From assembly GCA_022703505.1 (NCBI GenBank), contig JAKLDN010000004.1:186001-250000 (forward strand): a DNA stretch of 64,000 nucleotides, written 5' to 3'. Shown here in pieces: positions 2,916 to 17,950 of this stretch. This DNA is from Spirochaetota bacterium (lineage in GTDB: Bacteria; Spirochaetota; Spirochaetia; Treponematales; UBA12059). The position numbers were made by a program, and so were the translations under genes. The notes under the pieces are model-generated. The model made no database searches and was not told the origin of the DNA. It saw only the letters and a program-made list of their open reading frames with translations. Each line of letters starts with the position of its first letter. The stretch's first letter is position 1.

Positions 2916-4016
2916 ATGGAAGCGCGATCGATCCTTCCCCCCGTCGACGTGATGGACCGGGCGTTCCGGGAGCGGGACGCGGAGTTCGACGGGGTGTTCT
3001 ACGCCGCGGTCACGACAACCCGGATCTTCTGCCGGCCCTCCTGTCCGGCCCGGAAGCCCGGGGAGGGGCGGGTGGAGTTCTACGCCAGCCCCCGGGAGGC
3101 CCTGTTCGCGGGGTTCCGTCCCTGCCTGCGCTGCCGTCCCCTGGAGGCCGGGGGCCGGGCGCCGGACTGGGTCCGGGGTCTCCTGGACGCGGTGGAGGAG
3201 GATCCGGAACGCCGGTTCCGGGACCAGGACCTGCGGGAACTCGGGGTGGATCCCGCGGGAGCCCGGCGCTGGTTCAAGCGGGCCTACGGCATGACCTTCC
3301 AGGCCTACAACCGGGCTCGGAGGCTCGGCCGCGCCTTCGACTCTCTCAAACGGGGGGGGTCCGTGGACGACGCGGCCCTGGGATACGGCTGGGAGTCCTT
3401 TTCCGGCTTCCGGGAAGCCTTCGGCAAGACCTTCGGGGCTCCACCGGGAACCGTGACCGCCGAGGCCGACGGAGCCGCCCGGGCGGTGACGGGTTCCCGG
3501 GACTTCGTGCGCCTGGGCTGGATCGAGACTCCCCTGGGCCCCATGGTCGCGGGGGCCGTGGACGAGGGCCTGTGCCTCCTGGAGTTCTCGGACCGTAGGA
3601 TGCTGGAAACCCAGCTGGACACCCTGCGCTCGCGGTTCCGCCTGCCCCTGGCCCCCTCGGAGAGCCCCCATTTCGAACTACTGCGCCGGGAGCTGTCCGC
3701 CTACTTCGCGGGTTCCCTCCGGGAGTTTACGGTACCCCTGGTCCTGCGGGGAACGCCGTTCCAGGAGCGCGTCTGGCGCGGCCTGCTCGAGGTTCCCCAC
3801 GGAAGCACCGTAAGCTACGCGGCCCTGGCGGAGCGGATCGGGGTTCCCGGGGCGTCCCGCGCGGTGGGACACGCCAACGGGCTCAACCGCATCGCCCTGA
3901 TCGTGCCCTGCCACCGGGTGGTGAACGCCGACGGCCGGGTAGGAGGCTACGGCGGGGGGCTCTGGCGGAAGCAGGCCCTCCTGGACCTGGAGCGGGGGGC
4001 GCGCACCTTCGGGTGA
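2916..4016 (+). CDS. ada: Ada: O6-methylguanine/phosphotriester DNA methyltransferase and transcriptional activator
   Basis: 366 residues, close to E. coli Ada (354). The N-terminal zinc domain has C39, C43, C70 and C73; C39 is the expected methylphosphotriester acceptor that turns the protein into an activator. Residues about 85-185 are an AraC-type helix-turn-helix (RRWFKRAYGMTFQAYNRAR). The C-terminal methyltransferase domain ends with the PCHR active-site box at about 331-334 and the GGLWRKQALLDLE tail. The start ATG follows AAGGAGG. It repairs alkylated DNA and probably controls its own promoter. It converges on the sugar transporter gene across a perfect palindrome. Confidence 0.95.
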   Translation: MEARSILPPVDVMDRAFRERDAEFDGVFYAAVTTTRIFCRPSCPARKPGEGRVEFYASPREALFAGFRPCLRCRPLEAGGRAPDWVRGLLDAVEEDPERRFRDQDLRELGVDPAGARRWFKRAYGMTFQAYNRARRLGRAFDSLKRGGSVDDAALGYGWESFSGFREAFGKTFGAPPGTVTAEADGAARAVTGSRDFVRLGWIETPLGPMVAGAVDEGLCLLEFSDRRMLETQLDTLRSRFRLPLAPSESPHFELLRRELSAYFAGSLREFTVPLVLRGTPFQERVWRGLLEVPHGSTVSYAALAERIGVPGASRAVGHANGLNRIALIVPCHRVVNADGRVGGYGGGLWRKQALLDLERGARTFG

Positions 4017-8522: not shown

Positions 8523-9023
8523 ATGAGCAATTCCCCGGCCACAGAGTTCAAGGTGGATCAGAGGGTCGTCTACCCCAGCCAGGGTGTGGGACGGATCACC
8601 TCCATCACGGAAAAGAAGTTCAAGGACGTCTCCGTCCTGTACTACATCATCTACCTGGAATTCTCCGATATGACCGTGATGGTCCCGGTGGACAAGGCCC
8701 GCGACCTGGGCATCCGCCCCATCGTGCCCAAGGACGAGGCCCTGAAAGCCCTGAACTTCATCGCCGAGGAATACGCCCCCATACCCTCGGATTGGAAGCT
8801 CCGGTACCAGATGAACCTGGACCTCCTCAAGAAGGGCTCCGTCATGGACATCGCGTCCGTGGTGCGTTCCCTCTACCACAGGTCCAAGATCAAGGAGCTG
8901 CCGATCCTGGAGCGCAAACTCTACGATTCCGCCCTCAACCTGCTGCAGGACGAGGTCTCCTTCTCCCTGGCCAAGCCCAAGGACGATATCGCCGAGATCA
9001 TACGCCAGAAGCTGGAAGGCTGA
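8523..9023 (+). CDS. carD: CarD/CdnL-family RNA polymerase-binding transcription regulator
   Basis: 166 residues. The N-terminal RNA-polymerase interaction (Tudor-like) domain runs over about 8-70, with VDQRVVYPSQGVGRITSI and YYIIYLEFSDMTVMVPVD. The C-terminal helical DNA-contacting domain has the expected W-x-LR-Y-Q motif (DWKLRYQMNLDLLKKGS at about 94-110). It stabilises open complexes, chiefly at rRNA and housekeeping promoters. There is no ribosome binding site; the start lies within 12 nt of the -10 box. It converges with the GH31 gene with a 4-nt gap. Confidence 0.93.
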   Translation: MSNSPATEFKVDQRVVYPSQGVGRITSITEKKFKDVSVLYYIIYLEFSDMTVMVPVDKARDLGIRPIVPKDEALKALNFIAEEYAPIPSDWKLRYQMNLDLLKKGSVMDIASVVRSLYHRSKIKELPILERKLYDSALNLLQDEVSFSLAKPKDDIAEIIRQKLEG

Positions 9024-9027
9024 GCCC

Positions 9028-11052
9028 CTAGGGTCTTCGGGCCGTCCTGCGGATGGAGTCGAAGAGGGGAGCGAACCGCGATTCCTCACGGTAGAACACG
9101 AGCGGATACCCCAGGGGCGCCTCCAGGCTGACCGGGCCGCCCCGGAAGGTCCGGCTGGTCCAGAAATGGACCCACCTGTCCGGGGGAAGCCACGAGTCCT
9201 TGAGTTCCTGGCCCTTGCGAAACACCGGGCAGACCAGCAGGTCCCGGCCGTACAGGTATTGGTGATCCAGGAAGCGGACTTCCGGGTCCTCCTCGTAATG
9301 CGTCCACAGATGTCGGATCGGGGGCAGCCCCGCCTCCGAGCACTCCCGGGCGGCCGCCGCGTGGTAGGGTTCCAGGGCCGCGAAAATACCCGCCATCCGG
9401 ACGAAATGCCGGAGGCAGGCGGGGTCGGTCCAGTATTGGCAGTCGGAAAGGGGCTTGTTCCCCTCCTGGGTCCGGAAGACCGGGGAAAACGCGGCCATCT
9501 CGAACCATCGCTCCAGGCATTCGGGCTTGCGGGCCCCGAAGGCTCCGGAAACGCAGCCCCCCGCGTCGAAATGCCAGAACCCGGCCCCGGACAGACCCGC
9601 GGACAGGCCCGCGGGCACCACGCTGGACAGGCCCGCGGCGTCGCTGAAATCCGAAAGCTGGACCCCCGCCCAGAATCCCGACGCCAGGGTCGAGGACCCC
9701 GCCCAGCCCGATCGCTGGAAAAAGGCGATCTCGCCCGAGGCGCCCGCCTCCTCGATCGCCTCCCGGCCCGCCCGGGCCCAGAGCACGGGCCATAGGTTGT
9801 GGAGGTCCTGGGCCTTCTCGCCGGAATGCAGGACCGCGTCGTCCGGGAGACATTCCCCGAGGTCGGCCAGCCAGCCCGACATGCCCGGGTCGATCATCCG
9901 GGAGCGGAGCACGTCCTTGACCCATCGGAACGCCCGGGGGTTCGTCAGGTCCGGCATGACCGCCGTTTGGGACCCGGCCCCGAACCGGTACTCCCCGCCC
10001 CCGGGCGAGCGGACCAGGAGCCCCCGCTCCCGGGCCTCGGCGCACAGGTTTCCCTCGGAAGCCAGGAAGGGATTCACGTAGCCCAGGAACCGCACCCCTT
10101 CCGAACGCAGGGAGGCGATGAATCCGGGGAGGTCCGGATAGAGGTCCGGGTCCGCCTCCCAGTTCCAACGGGGCTGGAGCCCCTGCCGGGTGTCCCGGGC
10201 GCCGCACCAGTCCCGGACCCAGACCGCGGCGACCGGCGCCCCGGCCGTCCGTGCGGCGTCCAGTTTCCGGAGCACCTCCCCCGCCCCGCCCCCCACGCCG
10301 AGGATCGCGCCCTTCCGGGTCCAGGGAGGGATCGGCGGCGGACGCCCCACGCGGCAGGCCAGGGAGGAGACCGTTTCCGCGGCGCTGCCCCCCCGGCCCA
10401 GGGAAATCTCCCGGGGGGTCTTCCGGAATTCCAGGACCGTCTGCCGGGAAGAGCGGAAGTCGAAGCGGGCGAAGGAATCCGTGTCCGCGAATACCCAGTA
10501 TCGATCGGTGGAGACGAAGCACGGAAGGGGCAGGTAGGTCGAGCGGATCCGCCGGGGGTTCCGCTTGAGGTTGGCGGGTATCGGAAGGGGACAGAGCTCC
10601 CGGGCTCCCCCCCGATCCTCCACCCAGAGCGGCACGGACCGGCCCTTGAGGTCCAGCGGGCCGAACCGTTCCCCGCATCCGAGGATGGCCTCCCCGGGTA
10701 CGGCGGCCAGGCGGAACCGGAACCGGTCGTACCGGTCCCTCGGCCGCTCGAGGGTCAGCCGGAGGATTCCGTCCGCGTGCCGGGCGGACAGCCGAAGCCT
10801 GCCTTCGAAATCGATGACCGCGGATCCGGGTGCCGCTTCCTCGGCCCGGAAGCGGCGGAGGGGGGTCCACTTGATCCCGCCTTCCCAGGGAGCGGCCCCG
10901 CGCTTCCCGCCCTCGGCGGTCCGGCTCACCCCCAGCTCCGCGCAGGGCCTGCGTTCGGAATGGGAGAAGACCCGGTGCCCGTCCACGGAGAGGGTGAAGC
11001 CGCCCGGTTCGGCATCCAGGGCGATCAACGGAGCCCGTCCCTCCCGCGGCAT
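9028..11052 (-). CDS. GH31 glycosidase-like protein related to sulfoquinovosidase YihQ, predicted acid/base Asp lost
   Basis: 674 residues from the ATG at 11052, which overlaps the stop of the ankyrin gene (TGATG). E. coli YihQ has 678 residues. The (beta/alpha)8 barrel holds the nucleophile segment GWLADLGECLPDD with D397. The position of the YihQ acid/base aspartate, 67 residues downstream (WAGDQ in YihQ as I recall it), reads WAGVQ, so V464 replaces it. The loop that binds the sulfonate in YihQ aligns as RDWCGARDTRQGLQPRWNW, which changes the Gln and Arg ligands but keeps the Trp. Retained blocks include VRTQEGNKP-like and HYEEDPEVRFLDHQYLYGRD. It has no signal peptide, so it acts in the cytoplasm on a sugar imported by the GPH carrier; substrate and activity are uncertain. 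Confidence 0.8.
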   Translation of the reverse strand: MPREGRAPLIALDAEPGGFTLSVDGHRVFSHSERRPCAELGVSRTAEGGKRGAAPWEGGIKWTPLRRFRAEEAAPGSAVIDFEGRLRLSARHADGILRLTLERPRDRYDRFRFRLAAVPGEAILGCGERFGPLDLKGRSVPLWVEDRGGARELCPLPIPANLKRNPRRIRSTYLPLPCFVSTDRYWVFADTDSFARFDFRSSRQTVLEFRKTPREISLGRGGSAAETVSSLACRVGRPPPIPPWTRKGAILGVGGGAGEVLRKLDAARTAGAPVAAVWVRDWCGARDTRQGLQPRWNWEADPDLYPDLPGFIASLRSEGVRFLGYVNPFLASEGNLCAEARERGLLVRSPGGGEYRFGAGSQTAVMPDLTNPRAFRWVKDVLRSRMIDPGMSGWLADLGECLPDDAVLHSGEKAQDLHNLWPVLWARAGREAIEEAGASGEIAFFQRSGWAGSSTLASGFWAGVQLSDFSDAAGLSSVVPAGLSAGLSGAGFWHFDAGGCVSGAFGARKPECLERWFEMAAFSPVFRTQEGNKPLSDCQYWTDPACLRHFVRMAGIFAALEPYHAAAARECSEAGLPPIRHLWTHYEEDPEVRFLDHQYLYGRDLLVCPVFRKGQELKDSWLPPDRWVHFWTSRTFRGGPVSLEAPLGYPLVFYREESRFAPLFDSIRRTARRP

Positions 11053-11945
11053 CACTGCGCGAACAGTCGGACCATTTCCGGGTTGTGGAAGAGCTCGGCG
11101 TACTTGCGGGCGGAGAACCCGAGCTTGTCCTTCAGATCCGGATCGGCCCCGTAGGACAGGAGCTTCCTGCACAGGGGCACGTCGTTCCGTCCAACCGCGA
11201 TGACCAGGGCGGTCTGCCCGTCCTTGCTGGACAGGTTGGGATTGGCTCCGCGCTTCAGGAGGTAGTCCACGGCGTCCGCGCTTCCCGCGGCCGCGGCGTC
11301 CATGAGGGCGGAGTAGCCGCGGTCCTCGCTCTGCAGGTCCAGGGCCGCGCCGTGCTCCACCAGGAGCTCCGCGACGGCCTGGTGCTTGCTCCTCAGTGCC
11401 AGGCCCAGGAGGGTCACCCCCGCCCGGTCCCTCATGTCCGGTATCATCCCGGCCCGAAGGAAGAGTTCCACCGCCTTGACGTCCCCCTGGCGACAGCATT
11501 CCGCCAGGGACTCGGACCTGTAGGGAATCCCCAACTCCAGAAGGGAAGCCCGGGCCCGGCTGCGGCCTTCCCGCACCAGCCATTCGGCCCGCTCGGTCTC
11601 GTAGTAGGCGGCCGCGCGATCCAGGGAATCCAGGACGGTGACCCCCGTCAGGTATCCGGGGATCCGGAGGGAGGCGTCCTCCCGGTACACGGCCAGGCGC
11701 TTGTCGTTGCCCAGGCACCAGCCCCCGGTGAAGGCGAACCAGGTGGAATGGACGCTTTCCCCGGAGACCGCCAGGAGGATGTGGGAAGCCTTGCGGATCC
11801 GGAATTCCAGGGGCTTGCGGGACTCGTCCTCCCAGGAGGGGCCCAGCTTCAGGGCATAGGCGGAGATGCCCGCCTTGCCCAGATTCTTGAGAAGAGCCAG
11901 GGCGGTCTGGGAGTCCTTCGATCCAAGCAGAACGGCTACTTCCAA
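11052..11945 (-). CDS. TIR-like domain protein with C-terminal ankyrin repeats
   Basis: 297 residues. Residues 1-105 have a TIR-like pattern: the opening MEVAVLLGSKDSQTALALL, an RKASHILLAVSGESVHSTW segment equivalent to the TIR S-x-x-S-x-W box, then KRLAVYRED and IPGYL. The glutamate that TIR NADases carry just after this Trp is not evident (FAFTGG follows). Residues about 145-295 hold at least four ankyrin repeats (for example GVTLLGLALRSKHQAVAELLVEHGAALDLQ). It probably binds proteins; enzymatic activity is doubtful. It is translationally coupled to the GH31 gene. The family may be a spirochaetal core protein rather than a defence gene. Confidence 0.7.
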   Translation of the reverse strand: MEVAVLLGSKDSQTALALLKNLGKAGISAYALKLGPSWEDESRKPLEFRIRKASHILLAVSGESVHSTWFAFTGGWCLGNDKRLAVYREDASLRIPGYLTGVTVLDSLDRAAAYYETERAEWLVREGRSRARASLLELGIPYRSESLAECCRQGDVKAVELFLRAGMIPDMRDRAGVTLLGLALRSKHQAVAELLVEHGAALDLQSEDRGYSALMDAAAAGSADAVDYLLKRGANPNLSSKDGQTALVIAVGRNDVPLCRKLLSYGADPDLKDKLGFSARKYAELFHNPEMVRLFAQ

Positions 11946-12075: not shown

Positions 12076-13470
12076 TCAGAGCCCCCGTTCCCGGAGGGCC
12101 GCCCGGTTGCTCTCCGCCTTTGCCTTCGACAGGGTGTTGAGGCTTCGGAAGACCAGGACCCCGGCCACGAGGAATAGGGCCGGAAGCAGGGCCGTATGCA
12201 CCCGGATCCCCGCGACGGCGGCCGGGGAACGGGGATCCCGGGCGAAGCCCGTGGCCGCGTGGACCGCCCAGAAACTCAGGGCCTGGACCGCGTAGGAAAG
12301 CCGCCCCGCGAAGGCCCGGAACCCCAGGTAGACCCCATCCTCCCGCTTCCCGGTGCGGACCACGATCCCGTCCACCACGTCCGCCAGGGCGGGCCCGATG
12401 AGGAGCCAGAATCCGCCGAAGGCGGTCCCCCAGAAGAACATGGCCGCGACGAAGGCCCCGTAGGTCCGGGCCGCCAGAAGGGGAAGGCAGAACACGGCCA
12501 GGACCAGGGCGGCGGCCTGCAGGAGTCCCTGGACGTCCCCCCGCCTGCGCAGGAGGACCGTCCAGATCGGCACCGCGGCCAGGGCCCCGAGGAGCATCCC
12601 CGCGAAGATGAAGGTCGTGCTTCGGCCGCCCAGGACGTAATCCCCCACGTAGTGGATGGAGGCGGTCATCGAGATGGTCGCGGACTGGTAGAAGAAGAAG
12701 AGCAGGATGAAGGCCAGGAAATCCCGGTCCCCCAGGGCCTCCCGGAGGCGGGCGAAGAACCCGGGTTCCTCGGACGTGCGGGCCGTCTGCTCCAGGTAAC
12801 GGCGGATCATGGAGGGAGTCTCCCGGACCCCCGGGAGGAGGAGCAGGGCGGACACCAGGGCGACGGCGGCGAAGATCCAACCGTTCGCCGTGTAGGAGGC
12901 GGGATCGCCGTACCGGATCACCAGGGTGGGAAGGATGGCTCCCCCGGCGATGCCCAGGACCCCCACCACCGTCGCTACACCCGCGGCCTTGGCCCGCTCC
13001 GCGGTGCCCCGGAACCGGTCCGGGAATACGGACTGGTAGTTCAGCTCCCAGACGGAATAGAGCCCGTCGTACAGGCACACCGAGAACACGAGCCAGCCGA
13101 AGAGGAGGCCCGGGTGGGTTCCGCCGGCCGGGGATCCCGGGGGGGCGAAGATCAGCACGAAGGATAGGGCGCACAGCACCGTGCCCGCGGCTATCCAGGG
13201 GAAGCGCCTTCCCAGCCGGGCCGCCCAGGGTGTGGGCCGGGCGGTGAGGTACCCGATCAGGGGATCGTTCACGGCGTTCCACAGGGAGTAGACGATCACC
13301 CCCGCGGCCACGAGGCCCGCGGACAGGCCCAGCTCGGTCTCGTAGTACTTGAACACCAGGGCCGCGAATCCTCCCGTGAGGAACTCCGCCAGGAACTTGC
13401 CCATACCGTAGCTGGACATGGTCGGGAAACCCGCCTCCTGTGCACCCATCGCCTCGGTTTTGTCCGACAT
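12076..13470 (-). CDS. GPH-family (MelB-like) sugar:cation symporter
   Basis: 464 residues with twelve membrane segments. The GPH signature lies in the first half: SLWNAVNDPLIGYLTAR followed by LGRRFPWI. The LLIGPALADVVDGIVVRTGKR segment in the second half also fits. It should import a glycoside or hexuronide with H+ or Na+. The ankyrin and GH31 genes follow on the same strand after 130 nt, so substrate import and cleavage are probably linked. The start is backed by GGAGCCACT upstream of the ATG. Confidence 0.88.
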   Translation of the reverse strand: MSDKTEAMGAQEAGFPTMSSYGMGKFLAEFLTGGFAALVFKYYETELGLSAGLVAAGVIVYSLWNAVNDPLIGYLTARPTPWAARLGRRFPWIAAGTVLCALSFVLIFAPPGSPAGGTHPGLLFGWLVFSVCLYDGLYSVWELNYQSVFPDRFRGTAERAKAAGVATVVGVLGIAGGAILPTLVIRYGDPASYTANGWIFAAVALVSALLLLPGVRETPSMIRRYLEQTARTSEEPGFFARLREALGDRDFLAFILLFFFYQSATISMTASIHYVGDYVLGGRSTTFIFAGMLLGALAAVPIWTVLLRRRGDVQGLLQAAALVLAVFCLPLLAARTYGAFVAAMFFWGTAFGGFWLLIGPALADVVDGIVVRTGKREDGVYLGFRAFAGRLSYAVQALSFWAVHAATGFARDPRSPAAVAGIRVHTALLPALFLVAGVLVFRSLNTLSKAKAESNRAALRERGL

Positions 13471-14345: not shown

Positions 14346-15150
14346 ATTCCCCCTTGCCCGCCCGGAGCCAGGGACAGAGCCGGCGTTCCGCCAGGTCCGC
14401 AAGGCCGAAGAGGCCCAGGGCGAGCAGGGAGAGGGCGGCGATCCCCGCGAAGGTCGTGCGGTAGTCCGCCATGGCGTAGGCGTTCATGATGAGGTAGCCC
14501 GCGCCGTACCGGGTGGCGTAGTTCTCCGCGAAGAAGAGGGCCGCGACGCCCATGCCCAGGCCCAGACGAAGGGACGTGAAGATCCGGGGGAGGACCGCGG
14601 GGATGTAGAGATGCCGCAGAAGCTCCGAGCGTCCCATCCCCAGGGAACGGGCGGCCAGGAAGAGCCGTCCGGGGATCTCCGCGATCCCGTCCCGCACGGA
14701 CACGAGGGTCTGGAACACGGCCACCGCGGCGACGAACAGGATCTTGGACAGGTCCCCGATCCCGAAGAGGATCATGAACACCGGCAGGAAGGCGACCTTC
14801 GGAACCGGATGGAGGATCCGCACCGCGGAGCCCAGCAGGAACTCCGCCCGTCGGCTGGCCCCCAGGGCTATGCCGAGCGCGGATCCGAGCAGGATCTGGA
14901 GGGCCGTGGCCGCCAGGACCCGGGCCAGACTGGCGGCCAGGTGGACGGCCAGGTCCCGCCGGGCCAGGTCGGCCAGGGTCGCGAAGGTTTCCCCCGGGGA
15001 GGGGACCGCGCTGGTCCCCAAGCCCAGGTGGAGGACCTGCCAGGCCGCCAGGACCAAGAGCGCCCCGGGGAGGACGGACGCCGGGAAGCCCCGGCGCGCG
15101 GGATCGGACCGGCCGGAGGGGCCCGGGCCGGGGAGCCCCGGGCGCGTCAC
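14344..15150 (-). CDS. NitT/TauT-type ABC transporter permease
   Basis: 268 residues from a GTG at 15150 that overlaps the ATPase stop by 4 nt (GTGA). Six membrane segments. The cytoplasmic loop motif FLAARSLGMGRSELLRHLYIPAVLP is the EAA-type contact for the ATPase. Together with the two upstream genes it forms a complete importer of the nitrate/taurine/thiamine-precursor class. It ends at the DUF2202 terminator, which may serve both directions. Confidence 0.87.
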   Translation of the reverse strand: MTRPGLPGPGPSGRSDPARRGFPASVLPGALLVLAAWQVLHLGLGTSAVPSPGETFATLADLARRDLAVHLAASLARVLAATALQILLGSALGIALGASRRAEFLLGSAVRILHPVPKVAFLPVFMILFGIGDLSKILFVAAVAVFQTLVSVRDGIAEIPGRLFLAARSLGMGRSELLRHLYIPAVLPRIFTSLRLGLGMGVAALFFAENYATRYGAGYLIMNAYAMADYRTTFAGIAALSLLALGLFGLADLAERRLCPWLRAGKGE

Positions 15151-15947
15151 GGCTCCCCCTCCAGCAGGCGACGGACGCCCAGGCAGAATTCGTAGTATTC
15201 CAGCCGCTCCCGCAAGGACGGATCCCCGAACAGGGGGTTGTCCAGGACGGCCCGGATGCGCCCCCGCTCCATGACCGCCACGGAACTTCCCAGGAAGACC
15301 GCCTCCTCGATGTCGTGGGTCACCAGGACCACCGTCAGGTTTTTCGGCGAATCGGAGTGGCTGCACAGGCCCAGGACGGCGCGCTGGAAAGATTCCTTGG
15401 AAAGGGCGTCCAGGGAGCTGGAGGGCTCGTCCAGGAGGAGGAGATCCGGCTCCGCGGCCAGGGCCCGGGCGATGGCGGTCCGCTGACGCTCCCCCCCGGA
15501 CAGCTCCGCGGGGTACTTGTCCGCTCCGTGACCCACGCCGAAATGCTCCAGGAGGGACAGGGCCCGGTCCCGGTCGGCGCCGCGGGAACGCCGGTCCTGG
15601 GCTTCCTTACCGGCCCGGGACCCCCCGCGGCAGCCGAGCTCCACGTTCTGCAGTGCGGTCTTCCAGGGGAAGAGGCCGTAGTCCTGGAACACCAGGGCGG
15701 TACCGGACCTTTCGGCGGGGGGGCGGTCGTCCACGTGAAGGGAGCCGCCGGCGGCCGGTACCAGGCCCGCGATGGCGTACAGGAGGGTGGACTTGCCGCA
15801 GCCGGAAGGGCCCACGACGGCCAGGGAGGACCCCCGGGGCAAGGATAGGTCGAGGCCGTCCAGGGCCCGGTCGAAGGCCGGTCCCGCGGACCGCCCCGCC
15901 CGTCGCCCGCGGGGATAGTCCACGGTCAGGCCGCGCGCCTCGATCAT
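15147..15947 (-). CDS. NitT/TauT-type ABC transporter ATP-binding protein
   Basis: 266 residues. Walker A is GPSGCGKST (about 49-57), the Q-loop lies in FQDYGLFPW, the signature is LSGGERQRTAIARAL, Walker B is LLLLDEPSSSLD and the switch His is in THDIEEA. The FPWKTALQNV segment is typical of the SsuB/TauB subgroup. It energises the permease encoded directly downstream. A 19-nt gap separates it from the binding-protein gene. Confidence 0.93.
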   Translation of the reverse strand: MIEARGLTVDYPRGRRAGRSAGPAFDRALDGLDLSLPRGSSLAVVGPSGCGKSTLLYAIAGLVPAAGGSLHVDDRPPAERSGTALVFQDYGLFPWKTALQNVELGCRGGSRAGKEAQDRRSRGADRDRALSLLEHFGVGHGADKYPAELSGGERQRTAIARALAAEPDLLLLDEPSSSLDALSKESFQRAVLGLCSHSDSPKNLTVVLVTHDIEEAVFLGSSVAVMERGRIRAVLDNPLFGDPSLRERLEYYEFCLGVRRLLEGEP

Positions 15948-15966
15948 CCGGATTCCGCCTCCGGCC

Positions 15967-16914
15967 TCAGCGGGACGCGTCCAGGAGGTATCGTCCCCAG
16001 TCCAGGGTCACGGGCTTGCCCTGGAGGCCCTCGATCCAGGCGGAGACCTTGTCCAGGTACCCGCGGCTCGGAAGCCGGGTCGGCCGGTACTCCGGCAGGG
16101 CCATCAGGTCACGGACCCGGGGATCCAGGCGGAGCCGCTCGACCAGGATGTCCCGGGCCAGGGCGGGGTCCGCCCGGATGTCCGCGACCGCCCGGTCCAC
16201 GGCCCGGTTGAAGGCGGCGATCGCCTCCCGCTTGGCCCCGGCGGCCCGGGCGGTGAAGACCATCACGTCCGGATAGAAGTCGTCCTTGTTCTCGAAGACC
16301 CGCTTCTCCAGACCCGCCAGCTGGCCCATGGAGGCGATGGGTTCGGGAAGGCAGGCCATGTCCACCTTGCCCCGCTTGATCATCTCCAGGCGGGCGGGGA
16401 TGTCCGTGATGAAGACCTTCTCGATCTCGTACCGGCCCGCGAGCCACGCGTCCGCCAGGTAGTTGGAGACGCTCACCTCCATCATGGCCACCGAGGCCTT
16501 CCGGCCCTCCGGGAAGCCCGGGCGCACCAGGAAGGGGAAGGACCCGTCCGTGGAGCTCGTGATCCGGAGGTCGAAGCCGCCCTGGACGTTGTAGACGAAG
16601 GCGACCAGGTCGCTCATGGACCCGTCCACCGCCCCGGACTGTAAGGCCACCTGTCGCTCCGTGGCGTTCGGGAAGACGACCAGCTCGACGGAAACCCCTT
16701 CCCGGGCGAAGTACCCGCGCTTCTCGGCCAGCAGGGCCGGGGCGGAGTCCACGGCGGGCATGAGCCCGACCCGGAGCTCCGGGCCCGCCGCGGACAGGGG
16801 AAGGGCCGCCGGGGCGAGCAGGAAAAGGGCGGCCGAGAGGCGGAAGGACCGGCCGGAGCGGGGCTTGGACCGTATGGAACGCGGCCCCCGCGGGGCCGGA
16901 AGGGCAGCGGGCAT
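15967..16914 (-). CDS. ABC transporter substrate-binding protein (NMT1/THI5-like fold)
   Basis: 315 residues from the ATG at 16914, which follows AGGAGG. An N-terminal twin-basic region and the hydrophobic stretch LSAALFLLAPAALPLSAAG form a signal peptide without a lipobox. The body has the SsuA/THI5 pattern: LRVGLMPAVDSAPALLAEKRGYF, an internal GAVDGSMSDLVAF loop and KRGKVDMACLPEP. It captures a small organic ligand in the periplasm; nitrate, taurine, alkanesulfonate and pyrimidine precursors are all possible. It is the first gene of the three-gene operon. Confidence 0.85.
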   Translation of the reverse strand: MPAALPAPRGPRSIRSKPRSGRSFRLSAALFLLAPAALPLSAAGPELRVGLMPAVDSAPALLAEKRGYFAREGVSVELVVFPNATERQVALQSGAVDGSMSDLVAFVYNVQGGFDLRITSSTDGSFPFLVRPGFPEGRKASVAMMEVSVSNYLADAWLAGRYEIEKVFITDIPARLEMIKRGKVDMACLPEPIASMGQLAGLEKRVFENKDDFYPDVMVFTARAAGAKREAIAAFNRAVDRAVADIRADPALARDILVERLRLDPRVRDLMALPEYRPTRLPSRGYLDKVSAWIEGLQGKPVTLDWGRYLLDASR

Positions 16915-17041
16915 GTTCGAGACCTCCTGGGTTCCGCGCGCTCCGGGGGCTGGAGGGAGCGCCCTTCCTATGCTACCCTCGCCGGCGGGGCCGGTACAAT
17001 ACCCGGCCCGATCCTTCGAGGACGAGGAAGGTGATCCCGTC

Positions 17042-17950
17042 ATGGAATTGCTCGAATGCGGCCTTCCGGCCCTGATCCGGGACCTCTGGATCGCGGCCCG
17101 CCCCTTCTCCCTGAGCCTGGCCCTGTACGCCACGAGCGTGCCCCTGGCCCTGGCCTTCCGGGTGGGGATCCTGCCGGGCGACCGGCCGTGGGTCGGGGCC
17201 TTCCGGGCTCTGCTCGTGACCCTCTCGGGCCTGGCCGTCCAGGCCGCCACGAACCTCATCAACGACTACTTCGAGAGCGGCATCAAGGGCGCCCCGGAAG
17301 CCGAGCGGAAGTACCGGTTCCTGGGCCGGGACCGGGGAGCCTTCGAGATCCTGGTTTTCCTCCTGGCCCTGGCCTGCTTCGGGTTCACGGCCCTGGCGGG
17401 CATCTACCTGGTCCTGACCGTCACCCCGGTACTCCTGTGGATCGGCGCCCTGGGCCTGGCCGGGGGCTATTGCTATACCGGGGAGCCCGTCGTCTACAAG
17501 CGCTTCGGGCTGGGGGCGGTCCTGTCCTTCGCCCTCCTGGGACCCCTGATGAACTATGGGGCCTGGCTGGGGGTCGGAGGGACGCCTTCCTGGCTGCCCG
17601 TGCTGGTGGCCCTGCCGACTTCGCTGTTGATTCCCGCCATGATGCTGTCCAACGAGATCCGGGACGTGGAGCGGGACGCCGAGCTCGGCATCCGTACCCT
17701 GACCGTCCGGATCGGGCGGAAGGCGGGGCAGGCCGTCTACGACGGCTTGCTGCTGGCGACCTTCGGGTGGGCCGCTGCCCTCGTGCTCCTCGACCTGGCG
17801 CCTGCCGCGACCCTGGCCTCCTGGGCCGCCCTGCCCCTGGCGGTCCGGGCCCGGGTCCGGGTGGCCGAACGCCGCCGGGATGCCATTCCGGCGACCAACC
17901 TCCTGCATCTGGTGTTCGGGGCGCTGTATATCGGGGGATTGTTATGGTAG
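17042..17950 (+). CDS. UbiA-family prenyltransferase (MenA-like)
   Basis: 302 residues with about nine membrane helices. The first Asp-rich motif is NLINDYFE (about 77-84) and the second is NEIRDVERDAELGIRTL (about 202-218), which together bind Mg-prenyl diphosphate. The second motif resembles MenA (1,4-dihydroxy-2-naphthoate polyprenyltransferase), so menaquinone synthesis is likely, but no other men gene is nearby. The ATG at 17042 follows GGAAGGTG. The 3' end abuts a large inverted repeat. Confidence 0.85.
   Translation: MELLECGLPALIRDLWIAARPFSLSLALYATSVPLALAFRVGILPGDRPWVGAFRALLVTLSGLAVQAATNLINDYFESGIKGAPEAERKYRFLGRDRGAFEILVFLLALACFGFTALAGIYLVLTVTPVLLWIGALGLAGGYCYTGEPVVYKRFGLGAVLSFALLGPLMNYGAWLGVGGTPSWLPVLVALPTSLLIPAMMLSNEIRDVERDAELGIRTLTVRIGRKAGQAVYDGLLLATFGWAAALVLLDLAPAATLASWAALPLAVRARVRVAERRRDAIPATNLLHLVFGALYIGGLLW

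Follow-up and report, generated by a model that had tools for sequence, protein, structure and literature searches.

The closest solved relatives of the protein described here are the GH31 sulfoquinovosidases YihQ, SftG and SmoI (5aed, 6pnr, 5ohs and 8r56). In GH31 sulfoquinovosidases both the nucleophile and the acid/base serve a Koshland mechanism (PMC11968277), and replacing the acid/base Asp by Ala in another GH31 subfamily renders the enzyme inactive (PMC9061262). Pseudoglycosidases, which keep a glycosidase fold, have lost catalytic residues and are selected for another role, are known among GH18 chi-lectins such as YKL-39, GH1 klothos and the GH33-like CyRPA (PMC7828330). In the literature searched we found no description of a GH31 pseudoenzyme or pseudoglycosidase, which is not proof of absence.

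Here, we analyze a GH31 gene in a stretch of 64,000 nucleotides of spirochaete DNA (the window). Its product has length, domains and fold in common with YihQ, SftG and SmoI and keeps the nucleophile and part of the -1 site. In contrast to these enzymes, D472 (YihQ numbering) is replaced by Val, Q288, R301, Y508, H537 and Q262 are also replaced, and in the wider altered lineage conservation has moved from the catalytic loops to the C-terminal domain. The described pseudoglycosidases come from animals or protozoa and have known ligands or partners, whereas the window protein is a bacterial, probably cytosolic GH31 protein that resembles them in its fold, its lost catalytic residues and its apparent selection for another role.

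Results

A full-length YihQ-like protein is encoded beside carD

The gene and its neighbours are the following:

9028..11052, minus strand: GH31 YihQ-like protein, predicted pseudoglycosidase, 674 aa (ORF, Pfam GH31 domains, NCBIfam PRK10426, phmmer to 5aed)
8523..9023, plus strand: carD, convergent neighbour and positional anchor of orthology across genera
11052..11945, minus strand: upstream gene for a protein with ankyrin repeats and a weak TIR-like N-terminal domain (TIR_2 E=0.023, below cut-off)
12076..13470, minus strand: GPH/MelB-like sugar symporter, on the same strand as the GH31 gene and further upstream

The window protein matched 5aed with E=1.7e-145 (phmmer) and was 37% identical to E. 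coli YihQ in the MAFFT alignment. The N-terminal, barrel and C-terminal GH31 domains of Pfam are all present, with the TIM barrel and C-terminal profiles at 124 and 61 bits, over the Pfam cut-offs, and the protein scored 613 bits on the NCBIfam model of the YihQ family (PRK10426; cut-off 553). The first-pass annotation, made from the window sequence, had described the protein as full-length, and the 674 residues, the three Pfam domains and the NCBIfam match bear this out. The genome (3.66 Mb, 14 contigs) holds only one further strong GH31 match, C1:191102-192793. This canonical paralogue reached 913 bits on the same NCBIfam model and carries the complete set of Q288, R301, W304, D405, D472, Y508 and H537 (YihQ numbering).

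The AlphaFold2 model of the window protein, built from four sequences, had a pLDDT of 56.5 and a pTM of 0.57, with pLDDT <50 around residues 397-420 and 447-542. When this low-confidence model was searched with Foldseek, YihQ was the best of all PDB chains (TM 0.70).

The acid/base and most sulfonate-site residues are replaced

The positions compared with YihQ, all numbered from the MAFFT alignment and the first one also aligned with phmmer, are:

9661..9663, minus strand: V464 (GTC; the plus strand reads GAC), in the place of the YihQ acid/base D472
9862..9864, minus strand: D397, nucleophile position kept (YihQ D405)
10213..10215, minus strand: R280 for YihQ Q288, sulfonate-site position
10174..10176, minus strand: Q293 for YihQ R301, sulfonate-site position
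9553..9555, minus strand: C500 for YihQ Y508
9466..9468, minus strand: Q529 for YihQ H537

The Asp nucleophile of the GH31 motif GW.AD.GE was found as D397 in GWLADLGE, 67 residues before V464, as previously read. Active GH31 enzymes have an Asp acid/base in WxGD; codon 464 is GTC, and V464 stands opposite YihQ D472 in both alignments, facing the D of WAGDQ in the phmmer alignment to 5aed, which confirms the Val proposed for this position. A second YihQ entry, 5aee, reads WAGNQ, with N in the V464/D472 column. The fold matches also included an A. tumefaciens entry with 'mutant D455N' in its title.

At the sulfonate site of YihQ, which we take to be Q288, R301, W304 and Y508, the window protein reads R, Q, W and C; W304 (W296 here) is the sole residue retained. 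The altered Gln and Arg positions noted earlier are thus Q288 to R280 and R301 to Q293. The loss of H537 comes in addition to the residues named then, and Q262 is replaced by G. With D397, R447, W296 and D496 kept, part of the -1 site is intact.

A survey of this position in close homologues, proposed with the original observation, returned Thr. The two further species of the genus that were compared carry T464 (ACC) and share R, C and Q with the window protein at the positions of Q288, Y508 and H537. The acid/base column therefore reads V/T/T, the Asp is gone in 3/3 species, and R280, C500 and Q529 are fixed in 3/3. Because orthologues of the same genus carry Thr, the replacement at V464 is genuine and predates this species.

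Orthologues at the carD locus form a series

The search took in 23 genomes from the family and 294 from the order, plus added regions. In this spirochaete order, many genera belonging to two families have this GH31 gene next to carD; its usual setting in the second family is ankyrin protein, GH31, EamA transporter, ispDF and convergent carD. Among the carD-linked copies, L010 and L012 are catalytically complete, with R301 to Q as the sole change. Both Asp residues and H537 are also present in L011 and L013, where Q288 and Y508 are changed. In the window's genus the acid/base and H537 are lost. In nine genomes of the other family, the acid/base column holds D, E, G or a gap and many further residues are lost; the nucleophile is changed from D to E in three of the nine. 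The copy L022 (genome G003) has lost the nucleophile motif. From intact to nucleophile-less, nearly all carD-linked orthologues have long open frames. In several related copies D or E still occupies the acid/base column; the lineage as a whole is not uniformly dead. Elsewhere in the phylum, D405, D472 and H537 were kept in 5/5 of the closest relatives examined.

In two genomes of a sister genus (L102 and L103, in G005 and G004), the carD-ispDF-ankyrin locus is present and GH31 is absent. These loci are natural empty sites for the study of GH31 gain or loss.

A careful maximum-likelihood tree was built without the catalytic-loop columns and without the very divergent L016, L022, L023, L033 and L034, whose placement in a quick tree was uncertain; the orthology of L016, L022, L023 and L034 rests on their place beside carD. 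The window's trio was supported at 100/100 and the altered lineage (12 rows) at 96/93. One of the 12 rows, L009, still has D472 and H537. Together with L010-L013, the altered lineage forms a 16-row group (100/99), nested in a larger group (100/99) whose members mostly have Q in place of R301. According to this tree, the loss of the acid/base in the window's genus is separate from the D to E and D to G changes of the other family.

The next relatives of the window protein are YihQ-like proteins with R301 to Q (L010, L012 and L014 from the same order and L004 from beyond it), and the nearest, L010 and L012, share its position at carD. Unlike the window protein, they keep the complete catalytic set of D405, D472, R455 and H537; from their residues they are probably active, perhaps on a different sugar.

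A well-supported YihQ-like group with R301 to Gln has an otherwise complete active site (L010, L012, L014, L015, L054, L004, L055, L047, L056 and L066). Its members may not be strict sulfoquinovosidases although they pass as YihQ.

In the altered copies L080, L084, L085 and L081 of the other family, the acid/base motif is often GER or GDR, not GDQ, and D504 is Glu. This repeated pattern might reflect different chemistry rather than decay.

In the wider lineage, constraint has shifted from the loops to the outer domains

The GH31 reading frame is open in all three species, and dN/dS among them was 0.23-0.27, higher than in the canonical paralogue (0.14-0.19) and in carD (about 0.05). These values argue against simple gene death. 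Two marks of a pseudoglycosidase were found: an intact gene under purifying selection (dN/dS 0.23-0.27, open frames) and a conserved catalytic residue lost throughout the genus.

We compared columns that are ≥95% conserved in active relatives, with the catalytic loops set from barrel strand ends in YihQ numbering rather than from coordinates. The genus has lost 10/43 such columns in the loops vs. 3/61 elsewhere (Fisher p = 0.007), and the related family 21/43 vs. 10/61 (p = 0.0005). In active relatives, mean pairwise identity per column was 0.74 in the loops and 0.45 in the C-terminal domain, whereas in the altered lineage it was 0.39 and 0.64, and for neither set did any of 5000 column shuffles give a difference as large. 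All these p values are optimistic, since columns were treated as independent. Constraint is inverted in the wider lineage. In the genus alone the difference had the same direction and was not significant (p = 0.067). In the same three genomes the canonical paralogue had 0.93 in the loops and 0.66 in the C-terminal domain, and the window protein 0.68 and 0.77; the rest of its barrel, at 0.68, equals its loops. Per-column conservation in the altered lineage is highest in:

9043..9369, minus strand: C-terminal beta-domain, aa 562-670

Constraint was also gained in the N-terminal beta-domain, at residues 19-43 and 64-119.

These data suggest (i) a retained non-hydrolytic role, given that selection persists and in the wider lineage acts most strongly on the C-terminal domain; and (ii) protein contacts no less than sugar binding, given a pocket without excess conservation beside beta-domains with more of it.

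Neighbouring genes

The TGA of the ankyrin gene shares one base with the ATG of the GH31 gene (TGATG), and the two genes are probably translationally coupled in this species. The ankyrin gene is present in 125/294 genomes of the order, most of which lack this GH31, and this weakens a specific pairing of the two. In a profile search its N-terminal domain had no match in the PDB, and this domain was unresolved in the predicted structure. The GH31 protein had no match in the anti-phage defence library.

The neighbours (carD, glmS, the ankyrin protein and a distant GPH symporter) do not make up a sulfoquinovose catabolic cluster. Some active relatives adjoin a GPH carrier; a functional link of the window GH31 to its GPH symporter was considered and rejected, the symporter being only about 24% identical to those carriers. 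L010 lies behind an SftI-like isomerase that matches the sulfoquinovose isomerase model below cut-off, and at L081, an altered copy, the same isomerase still lies between the ankyrin and GH31 genes. These isomerases suggest that the ancestor worked in sugar catabolism.

Discussion

Our preferred explanation, which we hold to be fairly likely, is that the window gene encodes a pseudoglycosidase: a full-length, probably cytosolic protein, vertically inherited at carD and selected for a non-hydrolytic role that lies mainly in the outer beta-domains. With Val at the acid/base and with H537 and most sulfonate-site residues gone, classical retaining hydrolysis would be lost, and on these residues classical hydrolysis of sulfoquinovosides by this protein is very unlikely. 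The pseudo-enzyme option, one of several in the first-pass annotation, is supported by these losses together with the persistence of purifying selection. The ancestor would have been an active GH31 enzyme at the carD locus that descended vertically, lost its acid/base, H537 and most of its sulfonate site, and remained under purifying selection for a role of the outer beta-domains, above all the C-terminal one. The retained job is probably a non-cutting, previously undescribed one. We infer loss of activity, with binding as the retained function: most likely it would bind a partner protein, or hold a ligand without turning it over. The obvious candidate partner would be the co-encoded TIR-like/ankyrin protein; naming it is a guess, and the many genomes that have the ankyrin gene without this GH31 leave such a partnership weakly supported.

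An active retaining enzyme without the classical acid, which would form a glycosyl-enzyme on D397 and depend on a good leaving group or a non-water acceptor, seems unlikely. Myrosinases (GH1) are retaining without a classical acid and use a good leaving group, and acid/base mutants of GH31 enzymes accept such substrates or non-water acceptors in vitro. Transglycosylation or good-leaving-group substrates might be conceivable here: the retention of D397, R447, W296 and D496, a point against a pseudoglycosidase, would allow some chemistry with activated donors, and the fixation of R280, C500 and Q529, in three sequences only, could mark a newly specific pocket as well as a loss of constraint. However, the key position itself varies (V/T/T), conserved loops would be expected of an enzyme with a new pocket, whereas the loops here are no more conserved than the rest of the barrel, and no gene cluster was found that points to a good-leaving-group or transfer substrate. 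We consider it improbable that the protein is a normal hydrolase with its acid/base moved to another Asp or Glu, the sequence candidates being D468, D471, D496 and E400. D471 is conserved in the genus at no canonical Asp position (FSDAAG, FSDAAG, FNDASG), but D468, D496 and E400 occur beside D472 in normal enzymes and hence are no replacements, and the conserved DD of the canonical WSxDDG is lost, as are H537 and most sulfonate-site residues.

We give little credence to a gene on its way out, that is, an inactive copy under relaxed selection with stops yet to come. Its dN/dS does exceed that of the canonical paralogue, and the locus lacks GH31 in two genomes of a sister genus; yet dN/dS stays at 0.23-0.27 with the frame open in 3/3 species, the C-terminal domain is less conserved in active enzymes than in the altered lineage, and several genera of another family still carry altered copies. 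A sequencing or assembly error can be practically dismissed: GTC is one base off GAC, but the orthologues independently read ACC and several other active-site positions are altered together.

The pseudoglycosidase reading may tentatively be extended, as a distinctly less secure proposal, to a family of GH31 pseudoenzymes spanning the lineage at the carD locus, in which every stage from intact to nucleophile-less would be preserved, selection would have moved from the active site to the C-terminal beta-domain, and the protein would act as scaffold or regulator with the TIR-like/ankyrin protein. One orthologous gene at one locus offers a natural bacterial series from enzyme to apparent pseudoenzyme along which the shift of constraint can be measured, and it makes the recruitment of an enzyme to a non-catalytic role directly testable. 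Since the window protein passes the NCBIfam cut-off, annotation pipelines would label it alpha-glucosidase or sulfoquinovosidase, and surveys counting yihQ genes could score this genome twice.

Other genes in the window

A cluster of ABC permease, ATPase and NMT1-like binding protein genes lies at 14347-17262 (minus strand). It is faced by a UbiA prenyltransferase gene at 16616-17950 (plus strand), whose listed ORF overlaps the binding-protein ORF. At 2916-4016 (plus strand), an Ada-type protein combines an Ada metal-binding domain, an AraC-type helix-turn-helix and an O6-methylguanine methyltransferase.
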